This document shows, piece after piece, positions 26,669-34,243 of a stretch of DNA of 64,000 bases (positions are counted from its first letter, which is position 1; each line of letters begins with the position of its first letter). The position numbers were made by a program, and so were the translations under genes. Below the pieces are notes generated by a model that worked only from the letters and a program-made list of their open reading frames with translations, did no database searches and was not told the origin of the DNA. The stretch is from Flavobacteriales bacterium (GTDB lineage: Bacteria; Bacteroidota; Bacteroidia; Flavobacteriales; Flavobacteriaceae): positions 1 to 64,000 of the forward strand of contig JALVST010000123.1 in the NCBI GenBank assembly GCA_027024205.1. Reading direction: 5' to 3'.

Positions 26669-29308
26669 TCAAAACAAAGTCGGTTGGTCGTTATCATCCG
26701 GTTTCTTTTGTTCTGACTCATCGATCTTTTCTTCGGGTTTTGGAATTTTAATTTCAAACGGAATATCATCCGGATTTTGCTCAACCGGGTCATTTCCTGC
26801 ATCCGGTTCCACACTTTCTACGGTAGGCGGTTCATAAGTCAAAGAAGGCAGGATTTCTATTTTCTTAATTTTTTTCTTACTTAAAAGATTACCTTGCGCT
26901 TTGATACCTTTGATACCGATAAATTCGCCAACATTTATCTCTTGTGGCGGCTTTTGATCTTTGCCACGCTCTTTGGTAAAATGCAGGTTCCAAACCGGTA
27001 ACCAATCATAAGCAATTTGTAAGAGTTGCGCATTTTCAGGGATAAAAGCTTCTTCGCGTTTAAGATCGTCTATCAGAAAACGTTTAATAAAATACCGGTC
27101 TTTATCTTTATCGTAATAGGCGGCGGTAACGGGTTTTCCGGGTTCGTATTTTTCTAGCAAGATCATATTATCCGGAAAATGTTTTTCGAGGTCGGGAATA
27201 AATTTGGAGACACGACCGTCTTTCAAAATCATTACCAGTTGGTCATTGCCGCTGAATTCTCCCAAAAATTTGCCGCGTTCTTCGGTATTGAGGCGTTGTA
27301 CCACTTCGTCAAACCAGATTTTACGAGGTTTTAAGGTCGAAACGCCTGCTTCTTTGAGTTTAATGGTTTTGACAGGCAATTTGGTTACAAGATTGCCCCG
27401 TACACCACGGCCTTTGATAGTCAAATCTTTAAAATCAATATCGAATTTTGTTTTCCGCAAGCTACCGGTTTGTCGCAGGTAAACGGTTACTACTTCGGCT
27501 TCGCCGTTTGGGTTGACAGATAGATATAAAATTTCCGATCCGGGATTGCCGGAAGTTAAGTCATATTCTTTGTCACGGGTTACGCCGCTGACAAAAAAGC
27601 GTTTCATATATGAAGGACCGCGTTTCCCGTCCCGGTATATCATGTTGTAAATTGTGCGTTTATCTTTTTTCTTAAAAACGTTGATGTAAATAATGTCTTT
27701 ACCGAAAAACTTTTTATCGGTCACTTTGGAGACCATCATTTTACCGTCTTTACGTATCACAATAATATCGTCTATATCCGATACATCGGCAACATATTCG
27801 TCTTTACGTAAGGATGTGCCTGCAAAACCTTCTTTACGATTGACATACAATTTGACATTACGCATGACCACTTTGGTCGCTTCGATATCTTCAAAAGCTT
27901 TTATTTCGGTTTTACGTTCCCGTCCTTTGCCGTATTTTTTCTTGATATTTTTAAAGAAGTCAATCGTATAATCGATAATGTGTTCCAGATGATGTTGTTT
28001 CTCGGCAATTTTTTCTTCGATTGCTTCGATATTTTTACGGGCTTTGTCTATATCGTATTTAGAGATTCTCTTGATTTTTATTTCGGTCAGCCGCACGATA
28101 TCTTCTTCGGTAACAGGCCGTTTCAGATGTTTAATGTGCGGTTTTAAACCTTTATCAATAGCTTTGAGAACGCCTTCCCAAGTAGTTTCCTGTTCAATAT
28201 CACGATAGATACGGTTTTCGATAAAGATACGTTCCAACGAAGCGGCATGCCATTGGTCTTGAAGTTCTTGCAATTCGATTTCCAATTCTTGTCGCAACAA
28301 TTCCACGGTGCGCCGGGTCGAGCGTTCCAAAATTTCGCTGACGCCTAAAAACAACGGTTTATTATTTTCTATCACTACGGCCAAAGGAGAAATGGACATT
28401 TCGCAGTTGGTAAATGCATAGAGTGCATCAATGGTTTTATCCGGCGATACGCCCGGTGGTAAGTGCAAACGTATTTCGACATTTTCGCTCGTGTTATCTT
28501 CTATTTTTTTGACTTTTATTTTTCCTTTGTTGTTAGCCTTGATGATACTGTCAATCAGGCTGCCGGTAGTTGTTTTGTAGGGAATTTCGGTAATAACGAG
28601 TGTCTTGTTATTTTCTATTTTGATTTTTGCCCGTATCCGAATTTTACCGCCACGTTTACCGTCGTTGTAATTGCTGACGTCTATCATACCGCCGGTAGGA
28701 AAATCGGGGTACAAGGAAAATTTTTTGCCTTGTAAAACTTTAATAGATGCGTCTATCAGTTCGTTAAAATTGTGGGGCAGAATAGTTGTAGATAGTCCGA
28801 CGGCAATCCCTTCGGCCCCTTGCGCCAAGACGATGGGAAATTTTGCCGGCAGATTGACCGGTTCTTTTTTACGCCCATCGTAAGAAGCCGCCCAAGTAGT
28901 AATTTTCGGATTGAACAACACATCCAAGGCAAATTTTGATAAGCGGGCTTCAATATACCGTGAAGCAGCGGCACTGTCGCCTGTCAAGATATTACCCCAG
29001 TTTCCTTGTGTATCTATCAGCAGGTCTTTTTGTCCCATATTGACCATGGCATCGGCAATGGAGGCGTCGCCGTGCGGGTGGTATTGCATCGTATGTCCGA
29101 CCAGATTGGCAACTTTGTTGTAACGGCCGTCGTGTAATTCACGCATGGCGTGCATAATACGGCGTTGCACAGGCTTAAAACCGTCTTCAATGGCCGGCAC
29201 AGCCCGTTCCAAAATCACATAAGAAGCATAATCCAGAAACCATTCTCTGAATTTGCCTTTGACTTTTTTGATACTTTCTTGTTCGTTATGTTGCTGTTCT
29301 TCGTTCAT
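26669..29308 (-). CDS. parC: DNA topoisomerase IV subunit A ParC
   Basis: An 879-residue type IIA topoisomerase A subunit. The quinolone-determining region reads YHPHGDASIADAM with Ser83, and the catalytic tyrosine is Tyr118 in AAASRYIEARLSKFA. The winged helix, tower and coiled coil follow, then a divergent beta-pinwheel C-terminal domain and an acidic tail (EEKIDESEQKKPDDND). The DNA gate works with ParE to decatenate chromosomes. The N-terminus EWFLDYASYVILERAVP is the Bacteroidota ParC pattern. It follows mazF by 24 bp rather than directly following parE. Confidence 0.93.
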   Translation of the reverse strand: MNEEQQHNEQESIKKVKGKFREWFLDYASYVILERAVPAIEDGFKPVQRRIMHAMRELHDGRYNKVANLVGHTMQYHPHGDASIADAMVNMGQKDLLIDTQGNWGNILTGDSAAASRYIEARLSKFALDVLFNPKITTWAASYDGRKKEPVNLPAKFPIVLAQGAEGIAVGLSTTILPHNFNELIDASIKVLQGKKFSLYPDFPTGGMIDVSNYNDGKRGGKIRIRAKIKIENNKTLVITEIPYKTTTGSLIDSIIKANNKGKIKVKKIEDNTSENVEIRLHLPPGVSPDKTIDALYAFTNCEMSISPLAVVIENNKPLFLGVSEILERSTRRTVELLRQELEIELQELQDQWHAASLERIFIENRIYRDIEQETTWEGVLKAIDKGLKPHIKHLKRPVTEEDIVRLTEIKIKRISKYDIDKARKNIEAIEEKIAEKQHHLEHIIDYTIDFFKNIKKKYGKGRERKTEIKAFEDIEATKVVMRNVKLYVNRKEGFAGTSLRKDEYVADVSDIDDIIVIRKDGKMMVSKVTDKKFFGKDIIYINVFKKKDKRTIYNMIYRDGKRGPSYMKRFFVSGVTRDKEYDLTSGNPGSEILYLSVNPNGEAEVVTVYLRQTGSLRKTKFDIDFKDLTIKGRGVRGNLVTKLPVKTIKLKEAGVSTLKPRKIWFDEVVQRLNTEERGKFLGEFSGNDQLVMILKDGRVSKFIPDLEKHFPDNMILLEKYEPGKPVTAAYYDKDKDRYFIKRFLIDDLKREEAFIPENAQLLQIAYDWLPVWNLHFTKERGKDQKPPQEINVGEFIGIKGIKAQGNLLSKKKIKKIEILPSLTYEPPTVESVEPDAGNDPVEQNPDDIPFEIKIPKPEEKIDESEQKKPDDNDQPTLF

Positions 29309-29332: not shown

Positions 29333-29656
29333 TTAATCTACCAAGGTTTCTTTAATGACCGATTTTAATGCTTTTATTTCTGATTTTGAGAGTTCTCCCA
29401 AAGTTTTGATAATACGCTGTTTGTCAATCGTCCGTATTTGATCTACTACAATCCAACTTGTTTTATCATTATATGAAATTTTAACACGGGTTGGATAATT
29501 ATTTGAAGTAGAAGTAAGCGGTACAATTATAATCGTACGAATATGTTTATTCATTTCGTTAGGTGAAACAATGACACAAGGTCTTGTTTTTTTTATTTCA
29601 CTACCAATAGCAGGATCAAGATTTACTAAAATTATTTGGTATTGCTCAAACTTCAT
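29333..29656 (-). CDS. mazF: MazF/PemK-family endoribonuclease toxin
   Basis: A 107-residue toxin with QIILVNLDPAIGSEIKKTRPCVIVSP, TIIIVPLTS and SWIVVDQIRTIDKQRI, the three conserved blocks of MazF/PemK; the Arg of KKTRP and the Thr of PLTS are in the catalytic region. It would cleave mRNA at a short motif when freed from MazE. It overlaps mazE by 4 bp (ATGA). The pair sits between parE and parC. Confidence 0.9.
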   Translation of the reverse strand: MKFEQYQIILVNLDPAIGSEIKKTRPCVIVSPNEMNKHIRTIIIVPLTSTSNNYPTRVKISYNDKTSWIVVDQIRTIDKQRIIKTLGELSKSEIKALKSVIKETLVD

Positions 29657-29892
29657 TCTTCAAAAATTTCATCCTCAAAAATATCATCAATTAACAATTT
29701 ATCATCTTCTTTACGACGCATCTCTTCAAAAGCTTTTTCCCAACCCTGACGAGGGGTTTTTACCGGTTTGATGATGAGATAACCGTTTTTTAAAATCAAT
29801 TCTACTTTATCTTTAATATGGTATTTGTCAAGAATGGTTTTAGGAAGTCTTAAACCTTTTGAATTACCTATTTTGATGATTGACGCTTCCAT
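29653..29892 (-). CDS. mazE: MazE-type antitoxin, AbrB/SpoVT fold
   Basis: A 79-residue protein: the swapped-hairpin DNA-binding domain EASIIKIGNSKGLRLPKTIL, then YHIKDKVELILKNGYLIIKP, and an acidic C-terminal tail (EDDKLLIDDIFEDEIFEE) that would wrap the toxin. It is first in the operon and coupled to mazF. The promoter and dyad at 29906-29928 suggest autorepression. Confidence 0.88.
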   Translation of the reverse strand: MEASIIKIGNSKGLRLPKTILDKYHIKDKVELILKNGYLIIKPVKTPRQGWEKAFEEMRRKEDDKLLIDDIFEDEIFEE

Positions 29893-29961: not shown

Positions 29962-31827
29962 TTATTCTCTCTCAATCACATCCAATTCAACTTTCAGATT
30001 ATCGATGATAAAGCGTTGACGGTCAGGTGTGTTTTTACCCATATAAAAACTCAATAATTCTTCAATAGACAAATCCGGATCCATCATTACCGGTTCCAAC
30101 CGGATATCTTTACCGATGAAATGCTTAAATTCGTTTGGCGATATTTCCCCCAAACCTTTAAACCGGGTGATTTCCGGTTTACCACGTTTGCTCAATTTTT
30201 TGATAGCCGCTTGCTTTTCTTCTTCACTGTAACAATAAATGGTTTCTTGTTTGTTACGCACGCGGAACAAAGGCGTTTCCAAAATATACAGATGACCTTC
30301 TTTAATCAGTTCGGGAAAGAATTTTAAGAAAAACGTCAAGAGTAACAACCGGATATGCATTCCGTCCACATCGGCGTCGGTGGCAATCACGATATTGTTG
30401 TAACGCAGGTTTTCCAAACCGTCTTCAATATTGAGTGCCGCTTGCAAGAGGTTAAATTCTTCGTTTTCGTAAACGACTTTTTTGGTTAGTCCGTAAGAGT
30501 TGACTGGTTTGCCACGTAAACTGAATACGGCTTGTGTATTGACATCCCGTGATTTGGTTATGGAACCACTCGCCGAATCACCTTCGGTAATAAACAAAGT
30601 GCTTTCGAGTCGGTTTTCTTTTTTTAAGTCGTTGTAATGGACCCGGCAGTCGCGAAGTTTTTTATTATGTAAACTAACTTTTTTGGCGCGTTCACGGGCT
30701 AATTTTCTGATGCCGGACAATTCCTTACGTTCGCGTTCGGCTTGAATGATTTTTTGCAAAATAGCTTCGGCTGTTTCGGGATGTTTGTGCAGGTAATTAT
30801 CCAATTCACGTTTGATAAAATCATTGACATATGTGCGAACGGTAGGCAGGCCGTCTCCCATCTCCGTTGAGCCGAGTTTAGTTTTGGTCTGTGATTCAAA
30901 TACCGGTTCAATCACTTTGATACTGATAGCCGCCACTATGGATTTTCGAATATCCGAAGCATCGTAATTTTTGCCGAAAAAATCACGAATGGTTTTAACG
31001 ACGGCTTCTCTAAATGCCGCTTGATGGGTCCCGCCTTGGGTGGTATGTTGTCCGTTGACAAATGAATAATACACTTCACTGTATTGGGTTTTGCTATGGG
31101 TCATCGCTACTTCGATATCTTGCCCTTTGAGGTGGATAATCGGATAGCGGCGGTCTGATTCGGGAATATTTTCACTCAACAAATCTTTAAGCCCGTTTTC
31201 GCTATAAAATTTTTCGCCGTTAAACCGGATGGTCAGTCCGGTATTGAGATAAATATAGTTTTTGAACATTCGCACGAGGTATTCGGTGCGAAATCTGTAT
31301 TTTGGAAAAATTTCAGGATCGGGAGTAAATTCAACATAAGTACCGTTTTTTTGGGTAGTAGCTTCTAAATCCGACTCTTCAATCAGTTCGCCACGGCTAA
31401 ATACCGCCCATTTGGTTTGTCCGTCTCGAAAAGCTTGTACTTTAAAATATGATGATAAAGCATTCACTGCTTTGGTGCCGACGCCGTTTAACCCGACGGT
31501 TTTTTTAAAAGCACGGGAGTCGTATTTACCACCGGTATTCATTTTAGAAACTACATCAACAAGTTTGCCCAAAGGGATACCCCGTCCGTAATCGCGAACG
31601 GAAACCATAGTGTCATTGAGTTGTACCGTTATGGTTTTGCCGGCTCCCATAACAAATTCGTCAATGGAGTTATCCATTACTTCTTTGACCAAAATGTAGA
31701 TGCCGTCATCAGGAGACGAACCGTCTCCTACCTTCCCGATATACATGCCGGGACGCATACGGATATGCTGTTTCCAGTCAAGCGATTGAATGTGTTCTTC
31801 TGTATATGCCGTTTGTTTTTTTGCCAT
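29962..31827 (-). CDS. parE: DNA topoisomerase IV subunit B ParE
   Basis: A 621-residue GHKL ATPase subunit: EVMDNSIDE with the catalytic Glu49 and Asn53, [11 protein letters not shown], and [18 protein letters not shown]. The transducer domain follows, and then the TOPRIM site with [11 protein letters not shown] and [16 protein letters not shown]. Length fits ParE; GyrB in this phylum is of similar size, but the linkage to parC supports ParE. It powers strand passage by topoisomerase IV. A clear TAnnTTTG box was not found upstream. Confidence 0.93.
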
Positions 31828-32026
31828 AAAAAAGTCCGGAATTTATCAGCTCGCAAGATAATAAAGAATAAAATGTATTTGACGTAACAATTGTGAAATT
31901 TATTAACAATCCATTGTTAGTTGAAAGTTTAATGTTAAAAGTTGAAAGTTCGATTTCGAGTTGAGTAAAAAGAACTCATAAAAATTGTTTATTTGGATGG
32001 CTTTGAAATTAAAAAAACACATAAAA
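31828..32026. other. Divergent intergenic region between parE and the blaI-type gene
   Basis: No gene. It includes the degenerate repeat AGTTGAAAGTTTAATGTTAA, a common Bacteroidota spacer repeat also seen near 34505 and 39755. Confidence 0.4.
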
Positions 32027-32080
32027 ACTATAAAAATAGTCAAATAACTACAAAAATAGTTGTGTAACTAAAATAATAGT
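32027..32080. promoter_or_regulatory. Array of three 14-bp operator dyads at 20-bp spacing
   Basis: The sites at 32027-32040, 32047-32060 and 32067-32080 follow ACTAnAAAnnTAGT, and their starts are exactly 20 bp apart, about two helical turns. The third lies between a TTG -33 element (32060-32062) and the -7 box (32083-32090). This fits cooperative repression by the BlaI/MecI-type protein encoded downstream. Confidence 0.65.
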
Positions 32081-32082
32081 TG

Positions 32083-32090
32083 TATGTTTG
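32083..32090 (+). promoter_or_regulatory. -7 promoter box of the blaI-M56 operon
   Basis: TATGTTTG matches TAnnTTTG, with TTG 20 nt upstream, and ends 150 nt before the ATG, predicting a long 5' leader. Confidence 0.6.
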
Positions 32091-32194
32091 CAGTGAAAAT
32101 ACAATTGAAGGTTATTATTTCTGATAATTAAAAAAAAAATAGAAGTGTTATAAAAAATAATCTAGAAAGTCATAAACTATTATCAGATAACGAT

Positions 32195-32234
32195 ATAACC
32201 AAATAACCAAATAACCAAATAACCAGATAACCAT
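32195..32234. repeat. 8-bp tandem repeat (ATAACCAA), five units, just before blaI
   Basis: Three exact ATAACCAA units are followed by ATAACCAG and ATAACCAT, ending 6 bp before the ATG, in the position where a ribosome-binding site would lie. The same octamer is found at 13627-13658. Confidence 0.75.
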
Positions 32235-32240
32235 ATAGTT

Positions 32241-32612
32241 ATGAAACAAAGATTAACCCTGAAAGAAGAAGAATTGATGCAAGTGCTTTGGCGTTTGCAA
32301 AAGGCATTTGTAAAGGAAATTGTAGCAGCATTACCCGAACCGCGTCCGCATTACAATACGGTTTCGACCATTATCAGAAAAATGGTAGATAAGGGATTTG
32401 TCGGTTATGAGAGTTTTGGTAATACGCACCGGTATTATCCGTTGGTGTCAAAAAAAGCTTATACTGAAAATTTTATGCAAAAAGCATTGCGGAATTATTT
32501 TGACAATTCTTATAAAAATATGGTCTCGTTTTTTGCCAAAGAGCAAAAAATCAGTGCTGACGAATTGCGTGAAATTATTGAATTGATTGAAAATCAAAAT
32601 AAGGAGAAATGA
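32241..32612 (+). CDS. BlaI/MecI/CopY-family transcriptional repressor
   Basis: A 123-residue winged-helix repressor: LTLKEEELMQVLWRLQKAFVKEIV, the recognition-helix region PHYNTVSTIIRKMVDKGFVG and a C-terminal dimerisation helix. In related systems the repressor is cleaved by a BlaR1-type M56 peptidase on signal recognition. Here the peptidase gene overlaps by 4 bp, and three dyads precede the promoter, so autoregulation is very likely. Its wider regulon is unknown, and no beta-lactamase is nearby. Confidence 0.9.
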   Translation: MKQRLTLKEEELMQVLWRLQKAFVKEIVAALPEPRPHYNTVSTIIRKMVDKGFVGYESFGNTHRYYPLVSKKAYTENFMQKALRNYFDNSYKNMVSFFAKEQKISADELREIIELIENQNKEK

Positions 32613-34243
32613 ATTTAATTTATATTGTAAAAGTTAGTGCTTTAACTGCTGTTTTGTGGCTGATATACAAATTGTTACTTCGTAAAGACACTTTTTTCAA
32701 TGCGAAGCGGTTTTATTTTATAACCGGTATGTTTATTTCGTTTTTATTGCCTTTGTGGCGCATTAAAAAAGTTATTCCGGTTGACACAACTTCATTACCT
32801 ATTCCTATTAATAATTTGCTTACCGACAAAACTGTGGCTAATAATTTGCAGCAAGGTTTTGATTGGAACAATTTATTGTATGTTTTGTTTGCGGGAACGG
32901 TAGTTTTATTGCTTAAAATGTTGATAGACTTAACCGGTATTTACAGGTTGATTGCGAGAGGTGTCAAAGAGCAAAAAAACGGATTTGTATTAGTTAAAGT
33001 TGACAAAGTCATTTCCCCATTTTCATTTGGAAAATATGTAGTCATTAACCCGAAACAATTTACAGCGGAGGAACAGCAAATGGTAATAGCGCACGAACAG
33101 GTGCACATAAGTCAAAAACACAGTATTGATGTATTGCTTTCTAGTGTTTTTACGGCTCTGCAATGGTACAATCCTTTTGCATGGCTATGGCGCAATGATT
33201 TGATTGAAAATCTTGAATTTATAGCTGATAATCAGGTAGCAAAACAAGTGGCATCAGTCAAAAGTTATCAATATTTGTTATTAAAAACCGGTGTAGAAAA
33301 TCCGTTACCGGCTCTTGTTAATAGTTTTTATAAACCCAATTTAAAAAATAGAATTATGATGTTACAACAACAAAAATCTCAAAGTATTAAATTATTGAAG
33401 TTCGGTATTTTATTGCCGTTAATTGCTCTGTTTCTTTACGGTTTTAATACCGAAAAAGTTTATGCGCAAAATAAATCAAAGCATTACCTTATTGATAAAC
33501 ATACGACTGCAAAACAATTGAAAGAGATAGAAAAAAATATCAATAAAGAAGCTGAAAAATTTAAGGTTCATTTTGGCAACTTAATGTATATAGAGGATAA
33601 TTTGGTAAATGTTGATGTGTCAACCCATTATTTCACTACCGGAAAAGACACTAAATTACGAATCCAAAATGAAAAAGGCATTTTAGAAACTACCTTTTAC
33701 ATTAAAGATGGCATTTTTATTCTTTCTCAAAAAGAAGAAAAGACATTTTCAATATATGATGAAGGTGTAGAGGTGACTACTTCTGATAACAACAGCAAGT
33801 CATTTACTACAAGTTCTCTTCAAGTGAAACATTATACAAAAGATGGCAAAGAAGCCAAAACAAAATCGAATACCGGTGTCATTCATTACCATGAGAAAGA
33901 TTATTTTTACACTAAATCCGGTAATGATTATCGTTTTTTTGATATTTCCGGTTCTGAAACAGACCCGGAAACTTCCAAAGTTTTACTTGATGAATTAACA
34001 AGCAGGCAGATATTCTTGATTGACAGTAGTGTAGTAGATTCAAAAAATCCGCCGCTTTATATATTGGATGGAAAAATTATTTCCAAAAAAGCCGTGGAAA
34101 AACTTCCGGCTGATAATATACTTAAAATCACGGTGTTGAAAGGTGATGCGGCCAAAAAGAAATACGGAGAAAAAGGGAAAAACGGTGTAGTAGAGATTAC
34201 ATCAAAAAAAAAGCTAAACAACCCGTTACATAAAACAAAATAG
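32609..34243 (+). CDS. BlaR1-like M56 membrane metallopeptidase with C-terminal plug-like domain
   Basis: The 544-residue protein has about four membrane helices (near 5-22, 34-51, 90-110 and 268-285). The M56 zinc motif is HEQVH (His162, Glu163, His166) with a further acidic motif ENLEFIADNQVA. The large extracytoplasmic C-terminal part (about 290-544) is not a penicillin-binding sensor. It ends in PLYILDGKIISKKAVEKLP...DAAKKKYGEKGKNGVVEI, a fold like the plug of TonB-dependent receptors. The protease probably cleaves the BlaI-type repressor; the signal sensed is unknown. Confidence 0.88.
   Translation: MNLIYIVKVSALTAVLWLIYKLLLRKDTFFNAKRFYFITGMFISFLLPLWRIKKVIPVDTTSLPIPINNLLTDKTVANNLQQGFDWNNLLYVLFAGTVVLLLKMLIDLTGIYRLIARGVKEQKNGFVLVKVDKVISPFSFGKYVVINPKQFTAEEQQMVIAHEQVHISQKHSIDVLLSSVFTALQWYNPFAWLWRNDLIENLEFIADNQVAKQVASVKSYQYLLLKTGVENPLPALVNSFYKPNLKNRIMMLQQQKSQSIKLLKFGILLPLIALFLYGFNTEKVYAQNKSKHYLIDKHTTAKQLKEIEKNINKEAEKFKVHFGNLMYIEDNLVNVDVSTHYFTTGKDTKLRIQNEKGILETTFYIKDGIFILSQKEEKTFSIYDEGVEVTTSDNNSKSFTTSSLQVKHYTKDGKEAKTKSNTGVIHYHEKDYFYTKSGNDYRFFDISGSETDPETSKVLLDELTSRQIFLIDSSVVDSKNPPLYILDGKIISKKAVEKLPADNILKITVLKGDAAKKKYGEKGKNGVVEITSKKKLNNPLHKTK

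Follow-up and report, generated by a model that had tools for sequence, protein, structure and literature searches.

The blaI-M56 operon and its promoter

The window, by which we mean the whole 64-kb stretch of DNA that was analysed, carries on its plus strand genes for a repressor and a membrane protease, preceded by one promoter and three short palindromes (dyads). The features are as follows.

32027..32040, plus strand: dyad 1, candidate distal operator, ACTATAAAAATAGT
32047..32060, plus strand: dyad 2, candidate core operator, ACTACAAAAATAGT, sharing one base with the -33 TTG
32060..32062, plus strand: -33 element TTG, found at -7 relative to dyad 3 in 78 of the 93 promoters that were aligned
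32067..32080, plus strand: dyad 3, candidate core operator, ACTAAAATAATAGT, occupying the spacer between the -33 and -7 elements
32083..32090, plus strand: -7 element TATGTTTG (TAnnTTTG), found at +16 relative to dyad 3 in 71 of the 93
32241..32612, plus strand: blaI, BlaI/MecI-family repressor of 123 aa (PF03965, E = 4.6e-33)
32609..34243, plus strand: BlaR1-type M56 membrane metalloprotease of 544 aa (PF05569, E = 7e-17)

The first-pass annotation had called the gene downstream of the dyads a BlaI/MecI repressor, and the Pfam match bears this out. The match covers the full-length Penicillinase_R domain (positions 2-114 of 115), and by sequence the protein is also related to the MecI structures 1sd6 and 1okr (E about 1e-6). 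It is the sole PF03965 gene in the genome. The M56 gene overlaps blaI by 4 bp. Its product has the motifs HEQVH at 162-166 and EFIAD at 203-207 (the latter an ExxxD read by eye from the translation); HExxH and ExxxD are the M56 gluzincin motifs of the BlaR1/MecR1 sensor-proteases (PMC9834060). Pfam gives PF05569 alone for this protein, a penicillin-binding sensor domain being absent, and comparison with blaR1_generic gave 27.7 of 400 bits, far under the cut-off. The C-terminus contains a TonB-plug-like stretch, with weak matches to SusC/RagA plug regions at 478-534. The gene that follows encodes a DUF4286 protein on the opposite strand, and the blaI-M56 operon therefore comprises two genes. 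Farther upstream, a toxin-antitoxin pair (MazF-like and MazE-like), recognized by eye from the translations, is found on the minus strand (29333-29892) between topoisomerase subunit genes at 26669-29308 and 29962-31827.

The promoter belongs to the Bacteroidota type: TTG, 20 nt, and then TATGTTTG. The TTG overlaps the end of dyad 2 and the -7 box closely follows dyad 3; the dyads do flank and overlap the two promoter elements, as had been noted before. In Flavobacterium psychrophilum, the -7 box occupies positions -12 to -5 (PMC9723704), from which transcription is predicted to start at about 32095, with a leader of about 146 nt. Folding of the leader is modest (z -2.2), and an Rfam search of 31700-32400 gave no match to a structured RNA. 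An 8-bp unit, ATAACCAA, is repeated six times at 32187-32237, ending right before the blaI start codon; the number of repeats could vary and affect translation. In nine relatives selected for a GTTAGGG element in the leader, the repeated element Flavo-1 (RF01705) matches the leader in eight, three of these under the gathering score. Flavo-1 lies right after the -7 box at L114, L117, L142, L170, L176, L182, L190, and L204, which represent several genera. We rejected it as a part of the BlaI switch because it is present in 11-75 copies per genome in the set of tested relatives and in none in the genome of the window.

Three dyads in a 20-bp step

Inspection of the window places the starts of the dyads at 32027, 32047, and 32067, an exact 20-bp step across the blaI-M56 promoter, in agreement with the first-pass annotation. 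The motif proposed there, ACTAnAAAnnTAGT, fits dyads 1 and 2; dyad 3 departs from it by one base, T instead of A, and ACTA-N6-TAGT is the motif common to all three. Placement of the dyads on the same face of the helix, also proposed, is only approximate, since 20 bp correspond to 1.9 turns at 10.5 bp per turn. The dyads are almost certainly the operator of BlaI, and three BlaI dimers are likely to occupy the array. Cooperative loading of the dimers is plausible in view of the rigid spacing.

Conservation of the array

Conservation was studied in 100 relatives, which represent some 100 genera within the same family and were chosen by similarity of the BlaI protein, irrespective of the motif. 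Upstream DNA was scanned for dyads within 700 nt, and one mismatch per dyad was allowed. Two or more dyads in the exact 20-bp step are present in 92 of the 100 relatives (93 of 101 loci when the window is included), and three phased dyads in 66 (67 of 101). When the loci are aligned on the last dyad, matches fall at -40, -20, and 0; other offsets are nearly empty, and there are none at -60. In the BlaI proteins of the relatives, the recognition-helix stretch HYNTxST..R is invariant, and HExxH is present in the M56 protein of all 100 relatives examined. BlaI/MecI repressors are inactivated by proteolysis near N101-F102. An SFF stretch near this cleavage region is nearly invariant, and the equivalent stretch (M)VSFFAKE is conserved in BlaI.

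At least three of the exceptions have extra genes between the array and blaI. In L130 and L199, three dyads precede an additional gene that is inserted before blaI, and in the genome of L189 three are found upstream of a serine hydrolase gene (L035) that precedes blaI. A protein of about 330 aa that looks exported and has a HEHFH or HENFH motif resembling those of metallopeptidases is encoded just before blaI in L130 (532-1518), L199 (468-1448), and L189 (538-1566); a Pfam search, made for the L130 protein only, gave no match.

In a second, named set, which includes Flavobacterium, Tamlana, Winogradskyella, Algibacter, and Maribacter and partly overlaps the first set as both come from public genomes, 79 of 80 loci have at least two dyads and 50 have three. 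The reverse search, which used paired dyads alone, led to blaI in 50 of 57 loci, including some from other families of the class. One locus of another family has five dyads in the 20-bp step before its blaI-M56 operon (L055:1501-1594). Several Flavobacterium loci, among them L222, L228, L253, and L255, carry a tandem blaI-M56-blaI-M56 arrangement behind a single array, followed in some by a gene for a PF00144 serine hydrolase.

In relatives, the distal dyad usually carries a mismatch, and it could be that function is confined to the two core dyads, the distal one being a weak or relict site retained within a 20-bp tandem duplication. Tandem Repeats Finder reads 32026-32085 as a 20-bp unit present in three copies that are 80% alike, 26 of the 101 loci have just two phased dyads, and the distal site carries exactly one mismatch in 55, and two or more in 25, of the 91 relatives with enough upstream sequence. 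The same 91 relatives also provide an argument against this reading: 66 of them retain the distal site with at most one mismatch exactly 20 bp upstream of dyad 2, against 0.09 expected from shuffles, though the linkers and the N6 vary. In the window, moreover, the distal dyad is perfect. We consider a purely two-dyad operator unlikely, perhaps a one-in-several prospect, and favor a three-dyad operator, with the proviso that, given the frequent mismatches of the distal dyad, some relatives may load fewer than three dimers.

A proposed self-regulated switch and its possible signal

The best overall explanation of the sites, their phase, their fixed promoter position, their conservation, and their tie to this BlaI clade is, with high confidence, that the three palindromes serve as the operator of the BlaI encoded downstream in a self-regulated blaI-M56 operon. 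For binding, stoichiometry, cooperativity, cleavage, and signal, we infer the following scheme. One BlaI dimer would bind each ACTA-N6-TAGT site. With BlaI bound, dyads 2 and 3 would mask the -33 box together with the spacer that leads to the -7 box, which would keep RNA polymerase out. Dyad 1, just upstream, probably raises occupancy through contacts between neighboring dimers. The operon would carry both its own repressor and its own inactivator. The M56 membrane protease would sense an envelope signal and cleave BlaI, as in BlaR1 (PMC9834060). The array would then empty, blaI-M56 would be transcribed, and the repressor would be replenished.

A classical beta-lactam switch, in which a BlaR1 protein senses beta-lactams, cleaves BlaI, and induces resistance, would use the same components, as BlaI and M56 belong to the bla/mec family, and PF00144 (Beta-lactamase) serine hydrolases are encoded in or beside the operon at L035, L136, L217, L219, and L222. 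PF00144, however, includes many proteins that are not beta-lactamases, and in the window no beta-lactamase gene follows the M56 gene. The M56 partner of the window also has no penicillin-binding sensor, and we consider a beta-lactam switch improbable here. A close relative has, in its BlaI operon, an M56 protein fused to an M23 peptidase and LysM domains (L210:6363-9737). This fusion and the serine hydrolases in several operons point to a cell-wall or envelope signal.

That the array is a mere product of chance or of AT-richness, with no part in regulation, has practically no standing: AT content is very high here and further short repeats are present, but neither 400 shuffled windows nor 20000 local shuffles gave a single pair in the 20-bp step, and conservation of the array over about a hundred genera already refutes it. 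ACTAN6TAGT occurs three times in the 64 kb, always in the array, whereas shuffled windows have 0.41 sites on average and none of the 400 has a pair within 44 bp. Since about 100 genera of one family share the layout of three (or two) sites, the array appears to be a genuine and conserved switch that regulates itself, of a kind already known.

The switch appears, from the distribution of its sites, to regulate only itself in this genome. The whole genome contains 14 ACTAN6TAGT sites, and the array is the only phased set. The other 11 are solitary, 10 of them inside open reading frames; the wider regulon that a genome scan for the motif had been expected to define was not seen. A search for other 20-bp-phased pairs with up to three mismatches gave 6 matches, none convincing, versus 21 for a reversed control pattern. 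With the searches for single dyads and for phased pairs (up to three mismatches) giving nothing convincing, a regulon beyond the own operon was rejected for this genome.

A sister clade with 18-bp arrays

Many genomes have a second BlaI, mostly 45-52% identical to that of the window. Its promoter has two dyads 18 bp apart (1.7 helical turns), immediately before the -7 box, and often a third dyad beyond the -7 box at a variable distance. In a tree, the 20-bp and 18-bp classes form two separate groups with full support, the 18-bp rows of the tree having mostly been found by pattern. Protein similarity yielded 20 further sister copies: the 18-bp pair is present in 16 of them, a 17-bp pair in one, and an 18-bp pair with a mismatch in another, while two are without a pair of this type.

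The two classes also differ in half-site and in protein. The fifth base of the half-site is T or C in most core sites of the 20-bp class and A in 136 of 140 half-sites of the 18-bp pairs. Residue 37 lies at the edge of the recognition helix; all 92 proteins of the 20-bp class have His there, and all 18 of the 18-bp class have Ala. In the sister set picked by protein, it is Ala in 18 of 19 readable cases. A sister clade with an 18-bp step, A as fifth base, and Ala as edge residue is new here. Both classes are present together in several genomes (for example, G108, G116, G126, and G156); the genome of the window has the 20-bp class only, and in G129, of the same genus, only the 18-bp class was found. 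One further BlaI relative (L329) has two upstream CTACATTTGTAG palindromes in place of ACTAN6TAGT, possibly a third type of operator.

As a tentative idea, with the balance somewhat against it, operator spacing may act as an address code that keeps the two clades, often present in one genome, apart through the step, the fifth base, and residue 37. Dimers would touch each other only at the right step, and the 20-bp arrays, which reach five dyads in one genome outside the family, would make a steep cooperative switch.

Relation to known BlaI systems

In the bla and mec systems of Staphylococcus aureus (BlaI/MecI with BlaR1/MecR1), as here, a BlaI-fold repressor is encoded beside an M56 gluzincin protease, palindromes cover the promoter, and derepression is likely to proceed by cleavage. 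Unlike those systems, the present locus has no PBP-type sensor on M56 and no blaZ or mecA, and blaI precedes M56 in one operon with a rigid 20-bp array and a single promoter. In Bacillus licheniformis, BlaI binds three operators (OP1-OP3) between the divergent blaP and blaI-blaR1 units (PMC3305447). The number of sites per BlaI is the same; here the three candidate operators are arranged on one promoter in an exact 20-bp step, with ACTAN6TAGT in place of the OP1 oligo core TTACATATGTAA. In Clostridium thermocellum, BlaI_0696 and BlaI_1845 use ordered pairs of inverted repeats with GTCTAT/GACTAT half-sites at few target promoters, and combine autoregulation with a very small regulon (PMC8457756). 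The present system would resemble these in its ordered inverted repeats, autoregulation, and tiny regulon, but it has three dyads rather than two pairs and is found in another phylum and on another promoter type. In view of the three operators of B. licheniformis and the ordered pairs of C. thermocellum, the earlier statement that the locus has more dyads than classical bla/mec promoters was too strong. The locus is set apart from the known systems by having its sites in a rigid 20-bp step on a single promoter. A search for literature on Bacteroidota BlaI operators found nothing relevant, subscription papers being mostly outside its reach.

Pairs of BlaI and M56 occur commonly in this bacterial family. 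For these repressors, the array defines the probable operator, the geometry of the promoter and, through searches for phased sites, their targets. The 20-bp and 18-bp arrays, each with its matched repressor, offer a clean natural comparison of how spacing relates to specificity and cooperativity.
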